Both the position numbers and the translations under genes were made by a program. 35,672 bases of DNA, taken from positions 1-35,672 of the IMG/VR virus record IMGVR_UViG_3300044712_001119; one strand, 5' to 3'. Origin of the DNA: a virus. This document shows, piece by piece, positions 9,731 through 35,672 of the stretch (position 1 is its first letter; every line of letters begins with the position of its first letter). A model generated the notes under the pieces. The model searched no databases. It was not told the DNA's origin and worked only from the letters and a program-made list of their open reading frames with translations.

Positions 9731-10034
9731 AGGTCTCCTTTCGTAACAATTGGTTTCCGAATATTTTGGTTGTGTGGTAAAAATAATTTGGATGTGAGAT
9801 TGCGTACCACACTGCGCAGTCCGGTCAGGCCCACAGAACCCGCCGCGCACGCACAACGGCACCGAGGGCTTGCATATCCTGGCCGAAGCCCGGCCAGCGC
9901 TCACTGGTCGGGCTATCGAACCGTACTCCACAGACCCGGCCTGTGGAGCGCACCTCACATAACAGTGGGGCGCAGGCAGCAGCACCATGCAAAACATCAT
10001 GCGGCTGCCTGCAAGCCCCAAGTCGGGAGATAAT
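9731..10034. promoter_or_regulatory. Divergent control region between early operon and integrase
   Basis: I see no gene here. There are two inverted repeats: GTGTGGTA/TACCACAC at 9772-9779 and 9805-9812, and CTCCACAG/CTGTGGAG at 9926-9933 and 9941-9948. Promoters for both directions must lie here or nearby, but no convincing -35/-10 pair is visible. The repeats are candidate operators for the lysis-lysogeny switch. Confidence 0.5.
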
Positions 10035-10976
10035 ATGATCGGGTTAGATATCCAAACAGCAAGGGAAATGTCAGTGCACGAAATTACCGAGTATTTCCTC
10101 GAATTGGAATTGCTCGGAGTATCTGCGGAAACCCGCACCTGGTACATTCGCAGGCTAGGGCTGTTCATCGACGAAATTGGGCCAGATCGCAAACTATCTA
10201 CATTGACCGCCCTTGACCTGGTCCGCTGGTGGCGCCAACTCGAAGCCCGCACAATTTCTGTCCCCCCAACATTGACCGTCGAAACGTTCCACGGCTATGT
10301 GCGGTCCGTGCGCCGCTTGGTCAAATGGATGTATGACAAGCATTTGATCATTGACGATCTGTCTGATTACGTTAAGCTTCCCCGCTTGCCCAAAAACCGC
10401 CAGAGACGCGGGATCATGGATGACAACGCCATCCACATCATTGATCTGGCTCGCGATAACCCGCGCAACCTGGCCATCCTGCTCTTCCTCGAATCCACCG
10501 GTGCCCGTAGGGGAGGGGTGGCAAACTTGCGGCTGGAAGACATCGATGTAAATGCGCCTGAGCCGTTGTGCCGGCGGGCGATCGTGAGTGAGAAGGGCAG
10601 CAAATCCCGGATCGTTTTCATGTCCACCGAGGCTCTGGCAGCCATGCGTGCCTGGCTCGATATTCGCCAGTCGTGCTCAGACTACGTTTTCACAGATCTA
10701 AGGAAACACAAAACGGACAACCGACTTTTGCCTGGCGCGATCAACCAAATCATCGACACGTACCGGGTCAAGCTGGAACTCTCTGGCCGCTGTAGTCCCC
10801 ACCAATGGCGGCACCGCTGGTTTCGCGGTTTGATCAAAAATAACATCGGCCTGGCTAAAGTCCAGCAGCTCGGCGGGCATTCCAGCCCCGTCATCACGGC
10901 CAATATTTACGGCACGCTCGACGATGATGAGCTGCAGGACGCGTACGACGCGGCCTATCGACCAATAAAAACTTGA
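10035..10976 (+). CDS. int: Tyrosine integrase
   Basis: The product is about 313 residues from the ATG at 10035, which follows GGGAG by 5 nt; ATG 9987 is an in-frame alternative that adds 16 residues. A SAM-like core-binding domain (residues 15-125) precedes the catalytic domain. The full active set is visible: Arg in ESTGARRGG, Lys in SEKGSKSR, His and Arg in PHQWRHRW, His in LGGHSS and the nucleophile Tyr in ANIYGTLD. It catalyses recombination between attP and a tRNA attB. The attP core begins 80 bp after its stop. The stop lies inside the first arm-type inverted repeat, so integrase binding may repress its own expression. Confidence 0.93.
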   Translation: MIGLDIQTAREMSVHEITEYFLELELLGVSAETRTWYIRRLGLFIDEIGPDRKLSTLTALDLVRWWRQLEARTISVPPTLTVETFHGYVRSVRRLVKWMYDKHLIIDDLSDYVKLPRLPKNRQRRGIMDDNAIHIIDLARDNPRNLAILLFLESTGARRGGVANLRLEDIDVNAPEPLCRRAIVSEKGSKSRIVFMSTEALAAMRAWLDIRQSCSDYVFTDLRKHKTDNRLLPGAINQIIDTYRVKLELSGRCSPHQWRHRWFRGLIKNNIGLAKVQQLGGHSSPVITANIYGTLDDDELQDAYDAAYRPIKT

Positions 10977-11057
10977 CGAATGGCTCTAATAGCCATTTGT
11001 CAAGTTGAAAAACCGGGCGCAAAATTTAGACAAATGGCCTTTTAAGCCATTTGTTGA
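10971..11057. repeat. Four integrase arm-like sites as two inverted pairs
   Basis: The motif AGCCATTTGTCAA occurs at 10991-11003 (forward), 10973-10985 (reverse, one change), 11029-11039 (reverse, partial) and 11045-11057 (forward, two changes). The first pair forms a 15-bp-arm hairpin spanning the integrase stop codon. The second pair abuts the tRNA-like core. The layout suggests arm-type binding sites; the first hairpin may also end integrase mRNA. Confidence 0.7.
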
Positions 11058-11080
11058 GGGTTCGATCCCCTCCGCGCTCA
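11056..11080 (+). other. attP: attP core: 3' end of a tRNA gene (T arm plus acceptor strand)
   Basis: GAGGG-TTCGATC-CCCTC forms a perfect T stem with a canonical 7-nt T loop. It is followed by a 7-nt acceptor strand CGCGCTC and discriminator A. The 5' acceptor strand, D arm and anticodon arm are missing, so this is not a functional tRNA. Lying just past the integrase gene, it is the expected phage copy of the tRNA attachment site, which would restore the host tRNA on integration. Confidence 0.82.
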
Positions 11081-28224: not shown

Positions 28225-29031
28225 GGGGGATTCTCCTTCGAGCATGAGTGATTTTGACAGCGCCAGACGCCTGGAGCGGTATGCCTGGTGCGCCTGCACC
28301 TGGTCAAGATCTTCGCTCTCATCCACGGTTTGGGGCTCCTGCCCCAGGGATGGATCGCTTTGCGCGCTTTGTGTAACAGTGAGGCGTTTAATTTCCTCGC
28401 TGAACATTTCTAATTTTTGGGTAAACAGATCGTTTTCGTCATCGAGCGCGGTTTCTACGCCAGTCCCAGGAACAGCCGGGCTGTTGACTGCCGATGTTTC
28501 GCGGCCTTTCGGCTCGACGAAAAGAATCTCGCACAATTTTGTTATTCCAGTTTCCGGGTTGGTATAGCGTCTTCCGGCGATATGATTGCAAAGCAGAGAT
28601 AGATAGCTGTTATTGCAAATCGTGCACAGTGCAGCCTTGTAGTCCCAAAATCCCACGGAGAACCGGTCAATTTTCCCCTCGACAAAATCTGTCATTCCCC
28701 GGCGGGTAGTCAGGCGAATATCCTGGATAATTGCATCGCCCTGCAGGGACGACTCGACAATGGATCCATCGCGGGAGTCGATGTCGTAACTGTCGTGATT
28801 GCGCAAAAACGGCTGGCCTTCGAAGCTCCTGGCAAACGATGGCATGTCCTCTGCGCGAAAGGCGAAATAATTGCGATTCGGGCCGAGCACGAACACACGC
28901 GCGCGGAAATCGATGTGATCCAGCTCGCCGCTTTCAATCTTTGGAAGAATTTCAGCGCGAGGGGGTAGATCGAGCTTGTCAACAAGCGGCATGGACCGCA
29001 AAATAGTTTCGATAGATTTAGACATCTGCAT
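27880..29031 (-). CDS. HK97-type prohead protease fused to scaffold-like C-terminus, 383 aa
   Basis: Residues 35-195 carry the S78-like protease pattern: VFVLGPNRNYFAFRAEDMPS, catalytic H79 in FLRNHD, and S125 in DRFSVGFWD, followed by NSPAVPGTGVETA. An odd Cys-rich insert, C136, C139, C148 and H150 (CTICNN...LCNH), suggests bound zinc. Residues 270-350 are a long coiled coil (LMKQRAGLIEQAQALHNTAE; ALKGQIETIQAERARLSEAI) like HK97 delta or scaffold. The start overlaps the end of the portal gene. Confidence 0.86.
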   Translation of the reverse strand: MQMSKSIETILRSMPLVDKLDLPPRAEILPKIESGELDHIDFRARVFVLGPNRNYFAFRAEDMPSFARSFEGQPFLRNHDSYDIDSRDGSIVESSLQGDAIIQDIRLTTRRGMTDFVEGKIDRFSVGFWDYKAALCTICNNSYLSLLCNHIAGRRYTNPETGITKLCEILFVEPKGRETSAVNSPAVPGTGVETALDDENDLFTQKLEMFSEEIKRLTVTQSAQSDPSLGQEPQTVDESEDLDQVQAHQAYRSRRLALSKSLMLEGESPMNVRELMKQRAGLIEQAQALHNTAESESRDLTEEERVIFTALMDQADALKGQIETIQAERARLSEAINSLADIPAEPEKPAPGQQAASMKRAEYNALSVAEQAKFVQGGGAIVE

Positions 29032-30589
29032 CCTCTTTCCAGGTTAGTAATGGTGCATACGGATCATCCCATGTCGATGCTTCTTCCTCAATGCGTTCCA
29101 ATGAGGCTTCGAGCGCCCATTCTTTACGCGCCTGGCAATCGCAGGACAGATAACTATTAAGCAGTGCGCTGGAATCCGATCCAGTGAGGCGCCGCTGAGC
29201 ATCAAATATCGCGCCGAATTGTTTTCGAACAAATGCCGGATGATCATTTGTATAAAACTGATCCACCCAGGCGCGAAATTGATCATTCTGCCCACGTCCG
29301 AGAAAACGGCGCGCAGCTCCGAGCAGGTCATTACGTTCGCGTTTGATAATGCGCTGGCCAGCCTCAACGATTAACGGATCGAGCGCAGACGATTGTGCCC
29401 TGGGAGCCTGGGATTGATTTGTGCCGATATTGAGCGGGTGGTAATACTCATCGCCGCCCTGGTACGGGTTGAGGTTTTCTTTTTCGCGCACCTCATTTGG
29501 AGACATAATGCCGTTTGTAAGGGCACTGGTATAAGCCTGGTAACGGGCAGCCAGGTCACCACGCAGCAGGCCATCGATAAGATGTTCGAAATACATGGTT
29601 TCACGATCTGCGCTGAGCAGCACCTGGGTATTGAGGCCCTGCTCAGTGCGCACCATCCAGGGCCGCAGGGTATGGTTGATGTATCCCTGTTCCTGGCTGT
29701 CGATGCCGGTCCCCCAGCTGGTAGTCTTTTCAACATCACCGATCATGTGAGGCGGTACGCGGAAAATACGGGCGATTTCTGATACCTGGAATTTACGGGT
29801 CTCCAGGAACTGGGCATCTTCAGGAGGCAGTCCGATGGTGGCAACATCCATGCCTTCCTCGAGGACAGCGGGTTTATTCGAGTTTTCAACCCCACCATGT
29901 TCGTCAAACCAGGTATCCCGAATATTATTAAGCGCTGTTTCCCCCAGTTGTCCGGGATGTTTGATCACAACACTGGGGCGCGCATCGTTTGTGAAAAACT
30001 TTGATCCGTATGTTTCAGCGGCCAGGGAAAGGCCGATGGCGTTACGCGCCAGCGTAATGCGCGAATAACCGACCAGCCCGTCAAAACCGAATGCCGGAAT
30101 GTGCAGGATCTCATCGGCAAAGAATAGACGCGGTTTCCCGCCTGCAGAGGACTGGTATAGGTAAACCTTCTCCCCCTTGATCCTGGATACAGACATCCGA
30201 TCGGGGCGCAGCGGCCAAAGTGCGGTAGCATCGCCAGCGCTATTCGTCACGATCTGGCTATAGTGATTCCCCCAGGCCAGCATGTGCCCCTGGATCAATT
30301 CGCGGTAGATCATGCTGGTTTGTTCCGGGTTTGGCTGATCGTGGAGCAGCTTGTAATAACGATTGCCATACGCGCGGTTTTTGTTGCGCCCGTTGCGCTC
30401 ATAAAGAATCAGCGGCAGGCTTGATATGTCTTCGCTTAGGATGGTAAATGCAGCCAGTACGGCGCTTACCGTCAGCGCGATCTCTGGGGTTATCGGCTGA
30501 CCGGCTTTGCTACTCGATCTCCCCGAGGTATTGCGTGCAGATTCTTCGGGATCAGCCATTTGGGTACGCGAGCGGCGCTCAAACAACAT
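29018..30589 (-). CDS. Portal protein, HK97 family, 523 aa
   Basis: The stem and clip pattern (PEIALTVSAVLAAFTILSED, SLPLILYERNGRNKNRAYG, PEQTSMIYRELIQGHMLAWG) and SEIARIFRVPPHMIGDVEKT are characteristic of HK97-type portals. About 120 extra residues follow the core (residues 400-523), with RIIKRERNDLLGAARRFLGR. It forms the dodecameric DNA channel. An AGGAGAT SD stands before the ATG. Confidence 0.93.
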   Translation of the reverse strand: MLFERRSRTQMADPEESARNTSGRSSSKAGQPITPEIALTVSAVLAAFTILSEDISSLPLILYERNGRNKNRAYGNRYYKLLHDQPNPEQTSMIYRELIQGHMLAWGNHYSQIVTNSAGDATALWPLRPDRMSVSRIKGEKVYLYQSSAGGKPRLFFADEILHIPAFGFDGLVGYSRITLARNAIGLSLAAETYGSKFFTNDARPSVVIKHPGQLGETALNNIRDTWFDEHGGVENSNKPAVLEEGMDVATIGLPPEDAQFLETRKFQVSEIARIFRVPPHMIGDVEKTTSWGTGIDSQEQGYINHTLRPWMVRTEQGLNTQVLLSADRETMYFEHLIDGLLRGDLAARYQAYTSALTNGIMSPNEVREKENLNPYQGGDEYYHPLNIGTNQSQAPRAQSSALDPLIVEAGQRIIKRERNDLLGAARRFLGRGQNDQFRAWVDQFYTNDHPAFVRKQFGAIFDAQRRLTGSDSSALLNSYLSCDCQARKEWALEASLERIEEEASTWDDPYAPLLTWKEDADV

Positions 30590-30791
30590 TGTGGATCTCC
30601 TGCCTGTAGCGCATCACCGAGTTGAGAATGGCGGTAGCGATCAGGACTCCACCCACCGATGCAAATGCGACTCCCAGCCCAATCGCAAGCCAGAGGCCGA
30701 TAAACAGAAAAACCACCCCGACCAGGTAAATGATCTCAGTGGCTTCGAAGCCGAATTTTGGCTGCGGTGCATTTTGCGGATGAGCAGTCAT
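30579..30791 (-). CDS. Small two-span membrane protein, 70 aa
   Basis: The start at 30791 (MTAHPQNAPQPKFGFE) has CAGGAG just before it. Two hydrophobic segments follow (IIYLVGVVFLFIGLWLAIGL, AFASVGGVLIATAIL), with a basic end. It overlaps the portal start by 11 bp. Its leader holds an intrinsic terminator, so it is probably controlled by attenuation. Holin or superinfection exclusion are possible roles. Confidence 0.7.
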   Translation of the reverse strand: MTAHPQNAPQPKFGFEATEIIYLVGVVFLFIGLWLAIGLGVAFASVGGVLIATAILNSVMRYRQEIHNVV

Positions 30792-30801
30792 AGGCTCCTG
30801 G

Positions 30802-30858
30802 AAATAAAAAAACCGCCAGCCAGCCCTTACGGGATTTGACTGGCGGGCGGTAAACTCC
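30802..30858 (-). terminator. Leader terminator (attenuator) before the portal operon
   Basis: On the minus strand GGAGTTTACCGCCC (30858-30845) leads into a CCGCCAG/CTGGCGG stem (30846-30813) and TTTTTTTATTT. Only about 11 nt separate it from the SD of the next gene, so no promoter can fit downstream. It must be crossed for the portal operon to be expressed from the promoter at 30914. Confidence 0.78.
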
Positions 30859-30908
30859 GTCTTCCTGCAAATTGTCAACGGCCATTGACTTGGCCATTGG
30901 TCAAAAAT

Positions 30909-30950
30909 ATTATAGCACGAGTTTTCTAGTTATCCACAAAATTATCCACA
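30909..30950 (-). promoter_or_regulatory. Extended -10 promoter with two perfect DnaA boxes
   Basis: On the minus strand TGCTATAAT (30917-30909) is a consensus extended -10. TTATCCACA (plus strand) occurs at 30930-30938 and 30942-30950, covering the -35 zone. The boxes match the DnaA 9-mer exactly and sit 12 bp apart. Directly after the -10, GCCATTGGTCAA (30893-30904) resembles the attP arm motif. Confidence 0.78.
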
Positions 30951-31016
30951 TCTCAAAATCATTGTTGACAATGTCAATAATGATAACCAGGTAGGATTAT
31001 CTACTCCGATTAAAGC

Positions 31017-31139
31017 GCAACCGCCCGGGAGGGAAACGGGCGGTTGCAAATTCAAAATAAATTATTCCGTCGCCCGGCGGGGTGAGGGGGGCACCTCGAC
31101 AAGCGATGTCGTTATTTTAGCACAAATAATCTAGTTATC
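31017..31139 (-). promoter_or_regulatory. Second promoter copy and stem-loop
   Basis: TGCTAAAAT (31122-31114, minus) and the flanking CTAGTTATC match the promoter at 30909 in 22 of 27 positions. About 65 bp downstream a perfect 11-bp stem GCAACCGCCCG/CGGGCGGTTGC (31017-31027, 31037-31047) with weak U-richness follows. The unit could end terminase mRNA or make a short RNA. No gene lies in 30859-31137. Confidence 0.62.
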
Positions 31140-31464
31140 AAAGATAGAGTTTCAAATTTCCCGAATCAGTAAAGTAAAAATCGCCATAAACAATGCCGAG
31201 CCATGCCGATTTCCCCAAATGCCCATATTTGTTTCCTAATAATACACGTGCCTGGCGCTCGGTGTGGATGCGGGCAATGCGGAGAGGCATATTTTGGGGT
31301 ATATTACGTTCCAGCCACCATAGGAAATGTGGATCAAGCTCGGCGAGAACACGCATTGCATTTCTCAATCGCCTGGCATCATCATCGGCGATTTGGTCAA
31401 ATTTCGGCATGTTTTGGATGGCTTTTCGCCCAATTTTCCCGCGTTTTATGCCTGGCTTACGCAT
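31138..31464 (-). CDS. Hypothetical basic protein, 108 aa
   Basis: A Lys/Arg-rich start (MRKPGIKRGKIGRKAIQN) leads to a helical middle (DDDARRLRNAMRVLAELDPH) and a C-terminal beta part (GIVYGDFYFTDSGNLKLYL). An AGGAGG SD lies 5 nt upstream. It is cotranscribed with the large terminase and may bind DNA, but no family is recognised. Confidence 0.72.
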   Translation of the reverse strand: MRKPGIKRGKIGRKAIQNMPKFDQIADDDARRLRNAMRVLAELDPHFLWWLERNIPQNMPLRIARIHTERQARVLLGNKYGHLGKSAWLGIVYGDFYFTDSGNLKLYL

Positions 31465-31472
31465 ATAGCCTC

Positions 31473-33230
31473 CTAAATCCTGATAATTCCGCGCTTTTCA
31501 TAAACCGATTTTTTAGGCGCTGAGGGCGCGCTTGTAGCCCTGGCAGTGGCCATAATCATGGCCGTAATTCCGTCAATTTTCTCTTTTGACCGGCGTTTAT
31601 CCGGTGCCAGATTTCCAACTGGGTCCATTCTTGCAACCACGTTACCAGCCATCCATGTAAATACATCGTTATTCCCATGATAAAAACCATGGCTTTTGAT
31701 CAAACGCTCGACTTCTTTCATCGGGGCAGACATGGATAGATACCCCTGCCCCATCTGCACGACCGTGATATCCATATCATCCTGGAGCGTTTGCACAATA
31801 TTGGGCGCGCCGTAACGGTCATACGCCACCTCTTTGATACGGAATCGCTTGGCATCCTGTTCGATCTGTGCCAGGATGTATTTGTAGTCAATCACATTAC
31901 CGGCTGTAGCCGTTATAAATCCCTGCTCAACCCACACATCGTATTTGACTCCCTCGCTTTTTGAGCGCCGCATAACGGTTTCGGATGGGCACCAAAAACG
32001 AGCGAGATACCAATGTTTTCCGCTTTCGTCGTCCTCCATTGGGGGAAAATCCAGGACAAACGCGCACAGATCGGATGTGCTGGACAGATCCAGCCCGCCG
32101 TAACATTCCCGGCCTTCGAGCAGCTCCTCAAAATCTGCGCAATCGTGCGGACCGGCGCATTTTGCCCAGTGATCCATCGGCACCCACGCCACCGACGCCT
32201 GCACCCAGATATTGAGATCAAGCTGGCGAAATGAGTTAAGCGCCGACGGCATCAACTTGGCATTGGAGGCCTCTTCTCGAATGTATTTCCAGTATTTCGA
32301 AACCCCCAGATTGGGATTGGATTTTGCCCATTTGGTTTCGTCGTCCCAATCGTCTCCCTCATCCAGGGAATAGATAATGCAAAATTCCGTGTCGCCATCT
32401 TCAAGGGATGCCCGCCCGCTCAGGATCATCTCGGCTTTGTTGTGCATCTCATAGCAAAACGAGGATCTGTCGTTCCCGGCCGTAGTGATGGCCACCATCA
32501 ACGGCTGCCGGCGCGCCGATGTCGATGATTTGAGCTTGTCCCAGACTCCAGAGTGTTTATGCGCGTGCAGCTCATCGACAATGGCGCAGTAAGTGTTGAG
32601 CCCGTCCATCGTATCGCTGTCTGCACCGAGGGGCTCGAATTTGCAGGCTGTACCAGGGATGTGCAGGTTGTGTTTGTAGTTACGTACCCGTTTTTTGAGC
32701 GCCGGTGACTGGCTGACCATGCGCTCTGCTTCAGTAAACGTGATCAACGCCTGGTCTTTTTTGGTGGCCGCCGCGTATACTTCCGGGCCTCCTTCACGAT
32801 CTGCGAGCATCATGTACAGCGCGATTCCCGCGGCCAGCGTTGATTTCCCGTTTTTACGGGCCACTTCCAGGTACAAAACTGAGAACCGGCGCATTCCGCG
32901 TGTGTCCTGGATGCGCCCGTCGGGCATCTTTTCAACCCACCGGTCAGACTGATCACGCTGCCATCCGAATGTCACCCACAAAACGAACTGCTGCCACGGC
33001 TCCAGGGTGATTTTTTGCCCGGCCCATTCGCCCTTAGAATGCCTGAGCAATCCGAAAAAATCTAATACGCGCTGAGCGGATTCGATATCGAACCAGAATC
33101 CGCGCTCATGTGCGTGCTTCAGATCGTCAAGATGGCGTTTTGCAGCGAGCTTTGCCCATTTGCCTACAACGATTCGCCCCCGGGCGGCATCCCTGGCATA
33201 TTGCTCAGCAGGGTGCAGCGGTTTTCTCAT
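31473..33230 (-). CDS. terL: Terminase large subunit, 585 aa
   Basis: The ATPase motor has a Walker A-like ARKNGKST (residues 124-131), Walker B AIVDE (216-220) and the coupling motif ITTAGN (248-253). The nuclease domain shows GGLDLSSTSD (D381) and later acids in VAYDRYGAP and KEKIDGITA. It packages DNA and cuts concatemers. It is the Terminase_1 type that pairs with P27-like small subunits and HNH proteins, usually cos-type packaging. It overlaps the small subunit gene by 4 bp. Confidence 0.94.
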   Translation of the reverse strand: MRKPLHPAEQYARDAARGRIVVGKWAKLAAKRHLDDLKHAHERGFWFDIESAQRVLDFFGLLRHSKGEWAGQKITLEPWQQFVLWVTFGWQRDQSDRWVEKMPDGRIQDTRGMRRFSVLYLEVARKNGKSTLAAGIALYMMLADREGGPEVYAAATKKDQALITFTEAERMVSQSPALKKRVRNYKHNLHIPGTACKFEPLGADSDTMDGLNTYCAIVDELHAHKHSGVWDKLKSSTSARRQPLMVAITTAGNDRSSFCYEMHNKAEMILSGRASLEDGDTEFCIIYSLDEGDDWDDETKWAKSNPNLGVSKYWKYIREEASNAKLMPSALNSFRQLDLNIWVQASVAWVPMDHWAKCAGPHDCADFEELLEGRECYGGLDLSSTSDLCAFVLDFPPMEDDESGKHWYLARFWCPSETVMRRSKSEGVKYDVWVEQGFITATAGNVIDYKYILAQIEQDAKRFRIKEVAYDRYGAPNIVQTLQDDMDITVVQMGQGYLSMSAPMKEVERLIKSHGFYHGNNDVFTWMAGNVVARMDPVGNLAPDKRRSKEKIDGITAMIMATARATSAPSAPKKSVYEKRGIIRI

Positions 33231-33703
33231 TTCCCCCCAAATAGCTTATTTTCCAAGTCATCCTCAGCCGTTTTCGGCGGCTCGGCATGTACCCGCGACC
33301 GGCTCGCCGGTGTAAAGCCAAACTCGTTGGCGATCTTGATCATGCGATCCATGGCCCTGTTGGCGATTCCAAGCCACGGCGATTGCACTTCAAAGCCTTT
33401 GGGAGTCGTTGTCACCATCCCATTGGTATCGATCTCTTTGCGAGCTGATACCCAGTCTGCCCAGGCCTGGCAGTATCCGGCCAGCGCAGCCCGATCTGCG
33501 ATGGTAAGTACACCCTTTTGGAGCAGCTCAGGTGCCAGGCGATTCCATTCCGTGATGGCATCTTCGGTCAGGTGCGCCGGTGGCTCCAAATCTGCGCCAG
33601 AGAGGGGAGACAACGCAGGCTCAGCTGCGTTGAGCGCCCGTTTGCCAGGGTTACCCTCGGCTTTTTTCACTGCGGTTGGTTTTGGTGTTCTTCCACGTGG
33701 CAT
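33227..33703 (-). CDS. terS: Terminase small subunit, P27 family, 158 aa
   Basis: The start MPRGRTPKPTAVKKAEGNPG with KRALNAAEP is the hallmark of the P27 family. A helical DNA-binding core follows (ITEWNRLAPELLQKGVLTIA, SPWLGIANRAMDRMIKIANE). It selects phage DNA for packaging. It lies between the HNH and large terminase genes. Confidence 0.92.
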   Translation of the reverse strand: MPRGRTPKPTAVKKAEGNPGKRALNAAEPALSPLSGADLEPPAHLTEDAITEWNRLAPELLQKGVLTIADRAALAGYCQAWADWVSARKEIDTNGMVTTTPKGFEVQSPWLGIANRAMDRMIKIANEFGFTPASRSRVHAEPPKTAEDDLENKLFGGK

Positions 33704-33779
33704 TTTCAGTCCTGGGGGCGAAAAATAACCCCATTTGATAATTTCGCGGATATATTTTCACGACTGCCCTGGCCGGTCC

Positions 33780-34175
33780 CTAGCGAGAAGTCCCAGAGTT
33801 TTGACTCCCCCTCCCCTGCCATCCTCCACCATCTTCTCGATTTGTTTTGATCGAGTGACAGCTCTTGCACAATGATTGCAAATTGCGGAGCGCATGTGTT
33901 CCGCCTCGTGCCAGTGGCAGGATATGATCTACTTCTGTAGCCTGGACAACAATGCCATCATGCAAATGATATGGATCGGCGCAGATCGGATGGCGCTGCA
34001 GCTTGATCAACCTGATCTTGCGCCAGCGAGCATCGTACCCGCGATGTGATGCACTGCCCCGGGCCTGCTCTGTCGCACGGTTGCGCCGGTGCGCCTCGCA
34101 CCGGCTTTGACCGAACTCGTAGACCAGATTGCTGCACCCTGGTTGGGTGCAGGCCCGGGGCGGCGCTGTTGGCAT
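33780..34175 (-). CDS. HNH endonuclease, 131 aa
   Basis: An N-terminal zinc knuckle (C9, C14, C26, H29) precedes the HNH motif: D83-H84 in EVDHILPLARGG, N98 in LRNLQSL and CKSCHSIKTNRE (C103, C106, H107). The layout is the same as HK97 gp74-type packaging nucleases, which aid terminase cleavage. It is next to terS, as expected for cos phages. Confidence 0.92.
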   Translation of the reverse strand: MPTAPPRACTQPGCSNLVYEFGQSRCEAHRRNRATEQARGSASHRGYDARWRKIRLIKLQRHPICADPYHLHDGIVVQATEVDHILPLARGGTHALRNLQSLCKSCHSIKTNREDGGGWQGRGSQNSGTSR

Positions 34176-34432
34176 TAGTTGCCCTGATTTGCTGGCGTAA
34201 AATCTAGGTAATACTGCTCCCCAACTTCGAACAAATCGTCTCGTAATGCTGATAGTTCCAACTCTCCATGAGGAGTCGCTGAAAAAAACTGTTTGTTTTC
34301 CTCTGATCCAGAAACCACAGCAGAGAACTTATAGCTGTAAACAGCTTTTTTTGAGGGAGATTGCTCGCCAGATGACCAAGAGATTTGCACTCTTTTTGTT
34401 ACGGAATCGCAAATAAATTTTGCTCTTGGCAT
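34175..34432 (-). CDS. Hypothetical protein, 85 aa
   Basis: The start at 34432 lies one base after the upstream stop; ATG 34450 would overlap. The product is soluble and beta-rich (FICDSVTKRVQISWSSGEQS). No known domain is visible. Confidence 0.7.
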   Translation of the reverse strand: MPRAKFICDSVTKRVQISWSSGEQSPSKKAVYSYKFSAVVSGSEENKQFFSATPHGELELSALRDDLFEVGEQYYLDFTPANQGN

Positions 34433-34433
34433 C

Positions 34434-34925
34434 CTAGCCGCCTTTAACATAAAGATCGACAGTAGTGCCTGGTTTAGTCAGCGACTTTCCCAGAAGTGGC
34501 ACACCAGCTGCTTTGAGCTGATCATATGTCGGCTTTGATCCTGCCATCTGGACCATAAACCCAAGCACAAATACAGCGATCTGCGCGATCTGGCCAGCAT
34601 ATCCGTCCAAAAGTTCCAGGGTAGTGTCAGGACGGAATACACGGAAAGCCACCAGCCCAACGAAAAACATAAGATTGATACCGGCTGCCCACTGGCTGCT
34701 GGTCCCATCACGGACAAGCCCAGTCAACTTGAGCAGACTGATAACGGCAGCTGTCAGCTTGCTGAATCCACCTAGGGCAGCAAACCCGACCACCAAAACA
34801 ACGATGGAGCCGAGAATGCGCTCGAACTCATTGCCTTCGGCCTGGGCCGCGCGCGCCGGCGCAGGCAGGAACAGCGTGCAAATCAGCACAACGGCAATCA
34901 CGACATAAAGCAGTTTTGTTTTCAT
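34434..34925 (-). CDS. Signal-peptide-bearing three-span membrane protein, 163 aa
   Basis: MKTKLLYVVIAVVLICTLFL and a PAPARAAQA cleavage site form a Sec signal peptide. Three hydrophobic segments follow (near residues 41-64, 78-95 and 112-130). Such TrbC/holin-like proteins occur in phages before the packaging genes; lysis or membrane remodelling is possible but unproved. The start has an AAAGGAGACCT leader and lies just after a terminator, as for the gene at 30791. Confidence 0.75.
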   Translation of the reverse strand: MKTKLLYVVIAVVLICTLFLPAPARAAQAEGNEFERILGSIVVLVVGFAALGGFSKLTAAVISLLKLTGLVRDGTSSQWAAGINLMFFVGLVAFRVFRPDTTLELLDGYAGQIAQIAVFVLGFMVQMAGSKPTYDQLKAAGVPLLGKSLTKPGTTVDLYVKGG

Positions 34926-34941
34926 AGGTCTCCTTTGCAAC

Positions 34942-35001
34942 AAAAAACCGCCCAGCCTGCCCTCTCCAAACAGAGAGGGTACAGGCTGGGCGGTAAACTC
35001 C
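34942..35001 (-). terminator. Leader terminator (attenuator) before the 163-aa membrane protein
   Basis: On the minus strand GGAGTTTACCGCCC (35001-34988) opens an 18-bp stem (34993-34948, one bulge), then TTTTTTG. Only about 16 nt separate the U-tract from the start codon. The 14-nt head is identical to that of the leader at 30858-30845. Confidence 0.85.
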
Positions 35002-35016
35002 AGCGATCCCGAATCG

Positions 35017-35025
35017 ATTATAGCA
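35017..35025 (-). promoter_or_regulatory. Extended -10 promoter TGCTATAAT
   Basis: A consensus extended -10 on the minus strand overlaps the stop codon of the zinc-ribbon gene. No good -35 is seen, which is acceptable for extended -10 promoters. Transcription would begin near 35010 and meet the leader terminator at once. The same element occurs at 30909. Confidence 0.65.
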
Positions 35026-35236
35026 TTTCTTGCGCCATTGCCTCACGGACAATGCGGGCTATCACTTTGCTGCTCACAGAAAAATAAAACATCCTGCCAC
35101 AGTTGAGGCAGATTCCCTGCGCCTCCCGGAATATTAGCGTACCGATGCGCAGCATAACCAGGCCATCGACATCGATGGACTCGCCTACTTTTTCCCGGCA
35201 GTCCGGGTTTGGGCAAAGTACCGGTGTGCGTGTCAT
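35018..35236 (-). CDS. Zinc-ribbon protein, 72 aa
   Basis: CPNPDC and CLNCGR are two pairs that can form a Com/zinc-ribbon fold. The rest is short with a helical C-terminus (SKVIARIVREAMAQEML). It may be a transcriptional regulator of late genes, since it is the first gene of the late region, but that is inference. No SD precedes the ATG. Confidence 0.72.
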   Translation of the reverse strand: MTRTPVLCPNPDCREKVGESIDVDGLVMLRIGTLIFREAQGICLNCGRMFYFSVSSKVIARIVREAMAQEML

Positions 35237-35467: not shown

Positions 35468-35672
35468 TCAACGTGCATCATCCTGATATCTCGATGACGA
35501 GGCAAGCACCTTTCGCTGCCCGTTTTCAGAATACTCCGCAGAGCAAAACCCATCAGCTACCATACGATCAATCAGGCGCGCTGCCGTTGTAAACCCAATT
35601 CGCAAGTGCCGTTGCAGAGTGCTTAGCGACACATACCCATTTTTCTTGCCAAAATCCATGGCTTTTGTCATC
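35468..35672 (-). CDS. FtsK-gamma-like winged-helix protein (3' part, right-edge copy)
   Basis: This is the C-terminal 67 residues of the gene that starts at 596, read from the right-hand copy of the overlap and ending in TGA at 35468. The visible core LRIGFTTAARLIDRMVADGF closely follows the FtsK gamma consensus. It should be annotated once, as one gene of 609 nt across the circular junction. Confidence 0.8.
   Translation of the reverse strand, partial: MTKAMDFGKKNGYVSLSTLQRHLRIGFTTAARLIDRMVADGFCSAEYSENGQRKVLASSSRYQDDAR
35481..35672. repeat. Terminal overlap, right copy
   Basis: This is the second copy of bases 1-192. It differs once, at 35595. This copy encodes Gly in a motif resembling the FtsK gamma recognition helix, where the left copy encodes Ala. 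Gly is the family consensus as I know it, so this copy is probably the correct or ancestral one. Confidence 0.93.

Follow-up and report, generated by a model that had tools for sequence, protein, structure and literature searches.

A terminator-overlapping RNA hairpin recurs ahead of late operons in uncultured phages, with a small zinc-ribbon protein as candidate antitermination factor

We analyzed the IMG/VR virus record IMGVR_UViG_3300044712_001119, a stretch of 35,672 bp that we call the window. Its minus strand carries the same short leader twice, at site 1 ahead of the packaging operon and at site 2 ahead of the portal gene. Each leader combines an extended -10 promoter, a small conserved hairpin and an intrinsic terminator that cannot form together with this hairpin. 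The best reading, to which we give a probability of about 0.6 based on sequence comparisons, is protein-dependent antitermination through the RNA hairpin, with a 72-aa zinc-ribbon protein as the factor. An earlier note on this DNA had already proposed attenuation or phage-specific antitermination, and we come to the same judgment, as relatives retain the order of promoter, hairpin, terminator, and gene. The note had missed the second, exclusive hairpin formed by the flanks of its 14-mer, the linkage of the zinc-ribbon gene to site 1, and the location of site 1 at the junction of the early and late operons.

The two places in the window indeed have the common order that had been described: the extended -10 TGCTATAAT, then the 14-mer GGAGTTTACCGCCC, a strong intrinsic terminator with its T-run, a Shine-Dalgarno sequence (SD), and an ATG within around 20 nt (Table 1). 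The 14-mer has only these two exact copies in the window, and no others even when up to two mismatches are allowed. It had been regarded as a unit followed by a stem. The 14-mer is present, but it is not separate from the stem, since its ACCGCCC is the 5' arm of the terminator and GGAGTTT alone falls outside the terminator stem. The two sites have the extended -10 and the element in common but, by inspection, not the promoter spacer. As each promoter lies upstream of its terminator, it could serve the gene behind it only via readthrough. Transcripts arriving from the early genes or from TerL also meet the terminators, and late expression would hence need readthrough whichever promoter is used.

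The evidence for a second hairpin comes from the comparison of 21 distinct sites, all from related phages. The flanks of the invariant 12-mer are mutually complementary at every site: the bases differ and the pairing is kept, e.g., GCUGG/CCAGC at window site 1, UUGG/CCAA at site 2 of contig G001, GUUGG/CCAAC in G005, UCAG/CUGA in G008, and GCAG/CUGC in G009. The two bases that border the 12-mer, a purine in front and a pyrimidine behind, covary perfectly (12 G-C and 9 A-U). When the right flanks are swapped between sites, the pairing is lost (permutation P<5e-5 over all sites and 0.0055 within subfamilies). Paired cells amount to 87.6%, compared with 72.0 (standard deviation 2.7) in shuffles, and double-change cells to 20 compared with 8.2 (0/500 in both cases), while sliding the partner along as a control lowers the pairing to 19-50%. 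The resulting fold has a variable lower stem of 3-6 bp, one bulged A, a G-C and a U·G pair, and the loop UUACC, which is replaced by UGACC in L141 and L143 and by GUCCC, with a bulged G, at site 1 of G009. Its 3' arm and part of its loop make up the 5' arm of the terminator, and because these bases are common to both, the small hairpin and the terminator are mutually exclusive.

Pairing kept in a stem of variable sequence, together with an invariant bulge and loop, usually points to recognition by a protein. The operator hairpin of the MS2/R17 coat protein has a variable lower stem, one bulged A, a two-pair upper stem, and a small invariant loop. The hairpin described here has the same layout; loop sequence, protein, and function differ, and the analogy is only anatomical. 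The leaders also have two general features of antiterminator leaders, a terminator between promoter and gene, and an exclusive alternative hairpin conserved across relatives; for the third, a stabilizing factor, there is a candidate gene. Read from its sequence, the anatomy is that of a protein-binding antiterminator, and we infer the binding. We rejected a dual-hairpin reading: the extra upstream hairpin seen at some sites is absent at many others, and its loop varies. Many sites have GGGA or AGGA around 8 nt ahead of the hairpin.

To compile these sites, IMG/VR was scanned with patterns of the 12-mer plus terminator, first strict and then relaxed. The scan for GGAGTTTACCGCC...GGCGGTTTTT found the pattern in seven other contigs. 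All of them have an upstream -10 and, after the T-run, an SD and a start codon, and a search along the whole of these contigs gave second sites in several. The relaxed pattern gave a second subfamily, (C)AGAGTTTACCGCCTG. A last viral scan, which required the promoter, ACCGCC, and the terminator, but neither GAGTTT nor the protein, resulted in 49 loci with two new true sites, L141 and the site 2-like L143, from the same metagenome and both with the loop UGACC. All 21 sites, found in contigs of uncultured phages, have the hairpin and the terminator. Every one with upstream sequence has a -10, and most, not all, have an SD and a start codon close behind the terminator. The extended -10, with at most one mismatch, is found upstream at 15 of the 18 sites tested, compared with 1.7% of random positions. 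Because other phages show the same promoter-hairpin-terminator-gene order, with the extended -10 enriched, the module of the window is not a product of chance.

The earlier note had asked for a covariance search in related phages and had named relatives without the 14-mer and hairpin as evidence against its proposal. The relatives retain both, and a covariance model, built from the same 21 sites that it scores, gives 25-38 bits to all of them and less than 21 to everything else searched. Four matches of the strict pattern in bacterial genomes look like chance (14-21 bits vs 25-38 for members). When the closing pair was relaxed (AGTTTACCGC...GCGGTTTTT), the new sites all lacked the promoter and the gene order and were discarded as chance matches. 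When 14 element loci were compared with Rfam 15, none had a match at E<=1, to the T-box riboswitch or any other family, and the element had no score at or near the gathering threshold. A text search of papers for the 13-mer gave no match.

Gene order around the sites is also conserved. Exactly two sites are found in each of the five longer contigs that show both junctions (the window, G001, G004, G008, and G009), and one in G011 (33 kb). Site 1 lies ahead of packaging genes and site 2 ahead of portal or capsid genes in G004, G001, and G008 and, in pieces, in L141/L143, G002, and G006. In divergent phages, early genes are on one side of site 1 and TerS/TerL on the other. Transmembrane genes similar to the 163-aa gene of the window follow site 1 in G004 and L141, and the elements of G005, G009 (site 2), G015, and G018 precede scaffold and capsid-like genes.

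The leaders of some relatives have further features. At G009 site 2, the Rfam GP20-b RNA (45 bits; L038, 5610-5670) comes immediately after the terminator and before the scaffold and capsid-like genes; a similar untranslated stretch occupies this place in G015 and G018. The leaders of G008, G010, G016, and G005 (L086, L085, L093, L096, L091) have ATTCAA-n-TGAATA, a short inverted repeat near the transcript start, and then AGG between the -10 and the element. In another phage group, 13 loci (L111, L112, L126, L127, L135, L139, L142, L145, L147, L149, L152, L155, L157) have TGTGTTATAATACAG, then a AAAACCGCC...GGCGGTTTTTT terminator, followed in most by an SD and ATG. They lack the hairpin described here, and theirs is a separate promoter-terminator-gene leader.

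We then turn to the protein. An all-against-all comparison of the open reading frames (ORFs) of 14 contigs gave a single non-structural family present in each of the six contigs that extend to the early/late junction, namely zinc-ribbon proteins of 67-94 aa with two cysteine pairs. Besides the window, they are encoded in G004, G001, G009, G008, and G011, and in a seventh phage, L141, where the gene lies directly upstream of the hairpin (E 3.9e-17). In all six junction contigs, the stop codon precedes a same-strand element by 18-361 bp. In G009, this is the variant element (loop GUCCC, bulged G), which lies just behind the gene and was missed by the exact patterns. The AlphaFold2 model of the 72-aa protein is confident (predicted local distance difference test, pLDDT, 86.5) and combines a small beta sheet with a helix at the C terminus. 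The protein has no convincing match in Pfam, PHROGs, NCBIfam, or PDB sequences, and tblastn of three members against the INPHARED phages gave none. Only weak matches were found in 399 genomes from the phylum to which an uncultured Ruminococcus belongs and in 392 from that of a Phycisphaerae genome; those inspected look like YgiT/MqsA-like or other unrelated zinc fingers and lack the element. The zinc-ribbon protein is probably the antiterminator, which would stabilize the hairpin.

In the proposed mechanism, a constitutive-looking extended -10 promoter would start a very short leader. When the factor is absent, the terminator hairpin would form and transcription would end ahead of the gene. 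The small hairpin, which would be made first in the transcript, occupies bases of the terminator 5' arm, and a trans-acting protein binding its bulge and loop would stabilize it, block the terminator, and allow the late genes to be read. This factor is most likely the zinc-ribbon protein, encoded by the last early gene immediately upstream, and late expression would thus wait until it accumulates. That the two sites have a hairpin each suggests local, not processive, antitermination.

Several observations weigh against this mechanism. The terminators fold with -15 to -43 kcal/mol and the small hairpin alone with -2 to -9 kcal/mol; the terminator being much stronger, the small hairpin would need a factor. 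The covariation over the 21 sites depends on four variable pairs, of which the outer two fail at 6-7 sites each. The loop is not always equal within one phage, as G009 has GUCCC at site 1 and the canonical loop at site 2. Most contigs were chosen via the element, and the invariance of the 12-mer is therefore partly built in; the flank pairing, the gene linkage, and, except in L141 and L143, the promoter were not selected for. Finally, the model of the zinc-ribbon protein had no significant match among PDB and viral folds, and the proteins are not consistently basic (charge from -2.3 to +7.5).

This lack of uniform charge also fits an alternative that we consider unlikely, in which the hairpin is indeed an antiterminator, but what binds it is a host factor or a different protein of the phage, the zinc-ribbon gene being just a conserved last early gene. 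Gene and element are connected by linkage only, and they are separated by another small gene in G001 and G008. Yet, these intervening genes are not common to all, whereas the zinc-ribbon proteins are the sole non-structural family in all six junction contigs, and L141 is an independent case.

A Q-type system, in which a phage protein loads on the polymerase at a promoter DNA element and makes it terminator-resistant, the hairpin being incidental, seems to us improbable. The position and logic are those of PR'/tR', with promoter, terminator, and late genes in this order and the regulator as last early gene (PMC6606751), an arrangement shared with AlpA. Q (PMC6606751) and AlpA (PMC9371919) bind promoter DNA and the sigma-paused polymerase through a helix-turn-helix, and both depend on a pause element resembling a -10 among the first bases transcribed. 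In the window, by inspection, the two promoters have unrelated spacers and no common protein-binding DNA element there, and site 1 has no TAnnnT in its initial transcript. Membership in this class was therefore rejected. The conserved signal is instead an RNA hairpin at the terminator, and an invariant loop with a covarying stem in that place is not predicted by Q.

There is even less to recommend the view that the terminated leaders are small regulatory RNAs acting in trans via the shared GGAGUUUACCGCC, with the downstream genes expressed by leaky readthrough. Promoter, short transcript, and terminator are the layout of such an RNA gene, and there are two copies per phage with common sequence, but an SD and a start codon stand close behind the T-run at most sites, and the covarying stem with its invariant bulge and loop is better explained by a cis structure recognized by a factor. 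Ordinary operon punctuation, i.e., a terminator for the upstream genes next to a promoter, alike by inheritance among related phages, is equally implausible: such pairs do occur, as coincidences or in other clades, and the element is absent from most of the 49 scan loci, but two sites per genome in divergent phages keep the 12-mer while the arms vary in a paired fashion, and a promoter upstream of the terminator cannot serve the gene without readthrough.

Antitermination by a protein-stabilized hairpin, which we prefer, resembles RAT/LicT and ANTAR in its working principle, and Q and AlpA in position and purpose. In the BglG/LicT/SacY systems, a protein stabilizes an RNA hairpin, the ribonucleic antiterminator (RAT), that overlaps and excludes the intrinsic terminator of the leader (PMC3369936), as the hairpin does here. 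The RAT stem has two asymmetric internal loops and binds a CAT-domain dimer controlled by the phosphotransferase system, whereas here we find one bulged A, the loop UUACC, a zinc-ribbon candidate, and phage late genes. The single bulged A led us to reject membership in the RAT family, and no CAT/PRD antiterminator protein was seen among the window proteins profiled, Pfam having been run on part of them. The target of the ANTAR proteins NasR, EutV, and AmiR consists of two hairpins, P1 and P2, with A1 and G4 as critical loop bases (PMC3369936). A loop-recognized hairpin whose stabilization blocks a terminator would be common to both cases, but here there is a single conserved hairpin with the loop UUACC, the extra upstream hairpin of some sites having an unconserved loop. 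Lacking two hairpins with A1/G4 loops, the element was not assigned to this class either.

Small phage proteins with comparable roles are known. In phage Mu, the small zinc-finger protein Com recognizes a short RNA hairpin, with the core GAG(N)2CC in a selection of ligands by exponential enrichment (SELEX; PMC6483171), and is a precedent for such a protein reading an RNA hairpin. Its core resembles the GAG(N)4CC found here, which is a lead and not a test. Com exposes the mom start and activates translation, whereas the target here overlaps a terminator. The best match of the zinc-ribbon proteins, for one member, was a "translational regulator" PHROG (E 0.005), and there was no Com family among the Pfam matches listed. 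In Xp10, the small protein P7 binds the polymerase at the RNA exit channel and lets the host polymerase pass intrinsic terminators before late genes (PMC6624301). The candidate here would likewise be a small phage protein for passing terminators ahead of late genes; P7 has no leader hairpin target, and the text of PMC6624301 does not mention zinc.

The window is probably a complete phage genome, circular or terminally redundant, because the ends of the record repeat (1-192 and 35481-35672, 99% identical), and the phage is probably temperate, since it carries an integrase gene (9987-10976). A tRNA-like sequence just past this gene (11015-11080; Rfam tRNA, 34.9 bits, with no call by ARAGORN) may represent attP or a tRNA of the phage, and the host could be identified from it. 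The minus-strand early genes head towards position 1, cross the circular join, and finish with the zinc-ribbon gene. Site 1 follows, and behind it are a membrane protein, HNH, TerS, and TerL; next is site 2, which precedes a small membrane protein, portal (Pfam Phage_portal, E 1e-105), and the remainder. The proteins first behind the two sites had been called holin-like membrane proteins: both, of 163 and 70 aa, are hydrophobic, but neither matches a holin profile in Pfam or PHROGs, which leaves the holin label unproven. The 163-aa protein has no Pfam or PHROG match at all and, like TerL, found no viral relatives as a single-protein query.

Table 1. Features of the two leaders and of their adjacent genes in the window.
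Feature	Position	Strand	Basis or remark
72-aa zinc-ribbon protein gene, last gene before site 1	35018..35236	-	Cys pairs C8/C13, C43/C46; proposed antiterminator
Extended -10 TGCTATAAT, site 1, overlapping end of zinc-ribbon gene	35017..35025	-	Sequence; kept upstream of element in relatives
14-mer GGAGTTTACCGCCC, site 1	35001-34988	-	Sequence
Proposed antiterminator hairpin, site 1: GCUGG-A-GU-UUACC-GC-CCAGC	34985..35004	-	Fold, covariation over 21 sites, flank permutation, covariance model 35.4 bits
Intrinsic terminator, site 1	34942..34994	-	Stem ~34994-34947, T-run 34947-34942; fold -42.6 kcal/mol, z -7.5
SD AAGGAG and ATG, site 1	34935-34930; 34925	-	Sequence
163-aa membrane protein gene, first past site 1	34434..34925	-	ORF; SD 34935-34930; hydrophobic segments
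HNH endonuclease, TerS, TerL genes (packaging operon behind site 1)	31473..34175	-	Pfam and PHROGs
Extended -10 TGCTATAAT, site 2	30909..30917	-	Sequence; kept in G002, G006, G004 site 2
14-mer GGAGTTTACCGCCC, site 2	30858-30845	-	Sequence
Proposed antiterminator hairpin, site 2: G.CGG-A-GU-UUACC-GC-CCG.C	30842..30861	-	One A-C mismatch in lower stem; covariance model 36.9 bits
Intrinsic terminator, site 2	30806..30851	-	Stem to ~30811, T-run 30812-30806; fold -26.5 kcal/mol, z -4.0
SD AGGAG and ATG, site 2	30799-30795; 30791	-	Sequence
70-aa membrane protein gene (30579-30791) and overlapping portal gene (29018-30589), behind site 2	29018..30791	-	SD AGGAG 30799-30795

The region upstream of site 2 has other signals. 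Two perfect DnaA boxes (TTATCCACA) at 30930-30950 directly precede its -10; TTWTNCACA has 7 matches in the window, compared with 2.4 expected (0/100 shuffles), and G002 and G006 have the same TGTGGATAA boxes ahead of their site 2. A DnaA-regulated promoter or a replication origin is possible. Between the 108-aa gene and site 2 (31010-31141), there is a further promoter-like TTGATA-16-TAAAAT, together with a strong ACCGCCCG...CGGGCGGT hairpin that has neither GAGTTT nor a clear T-run.

Q-type antiterminators of late genes are known from a few host groups. The circuit described here would be compact, i.e., one protein of ~70 aa, one hairpin of ~20 nt, and one terminator, conserved in divergent uncultured phages. 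We incline mildly towards seeing in it a new class of late control, in which a tiny zinc-ribbon protein binds a hairpin in the terminators of the packaging and head operons and turns both on together. If this is true, it would stand in functionally for lambda Q while acting on RNA, and would be made of an RNA family and a protein family that are both uncatalogued. It would also add to the known pairs of RNA and protein that recognize each other and to the routes of late antitermination in phages, and provide a small orthogonal part for regulation. The element itself can serve as a sequence mark of the early/late junction in genomes of this kind.

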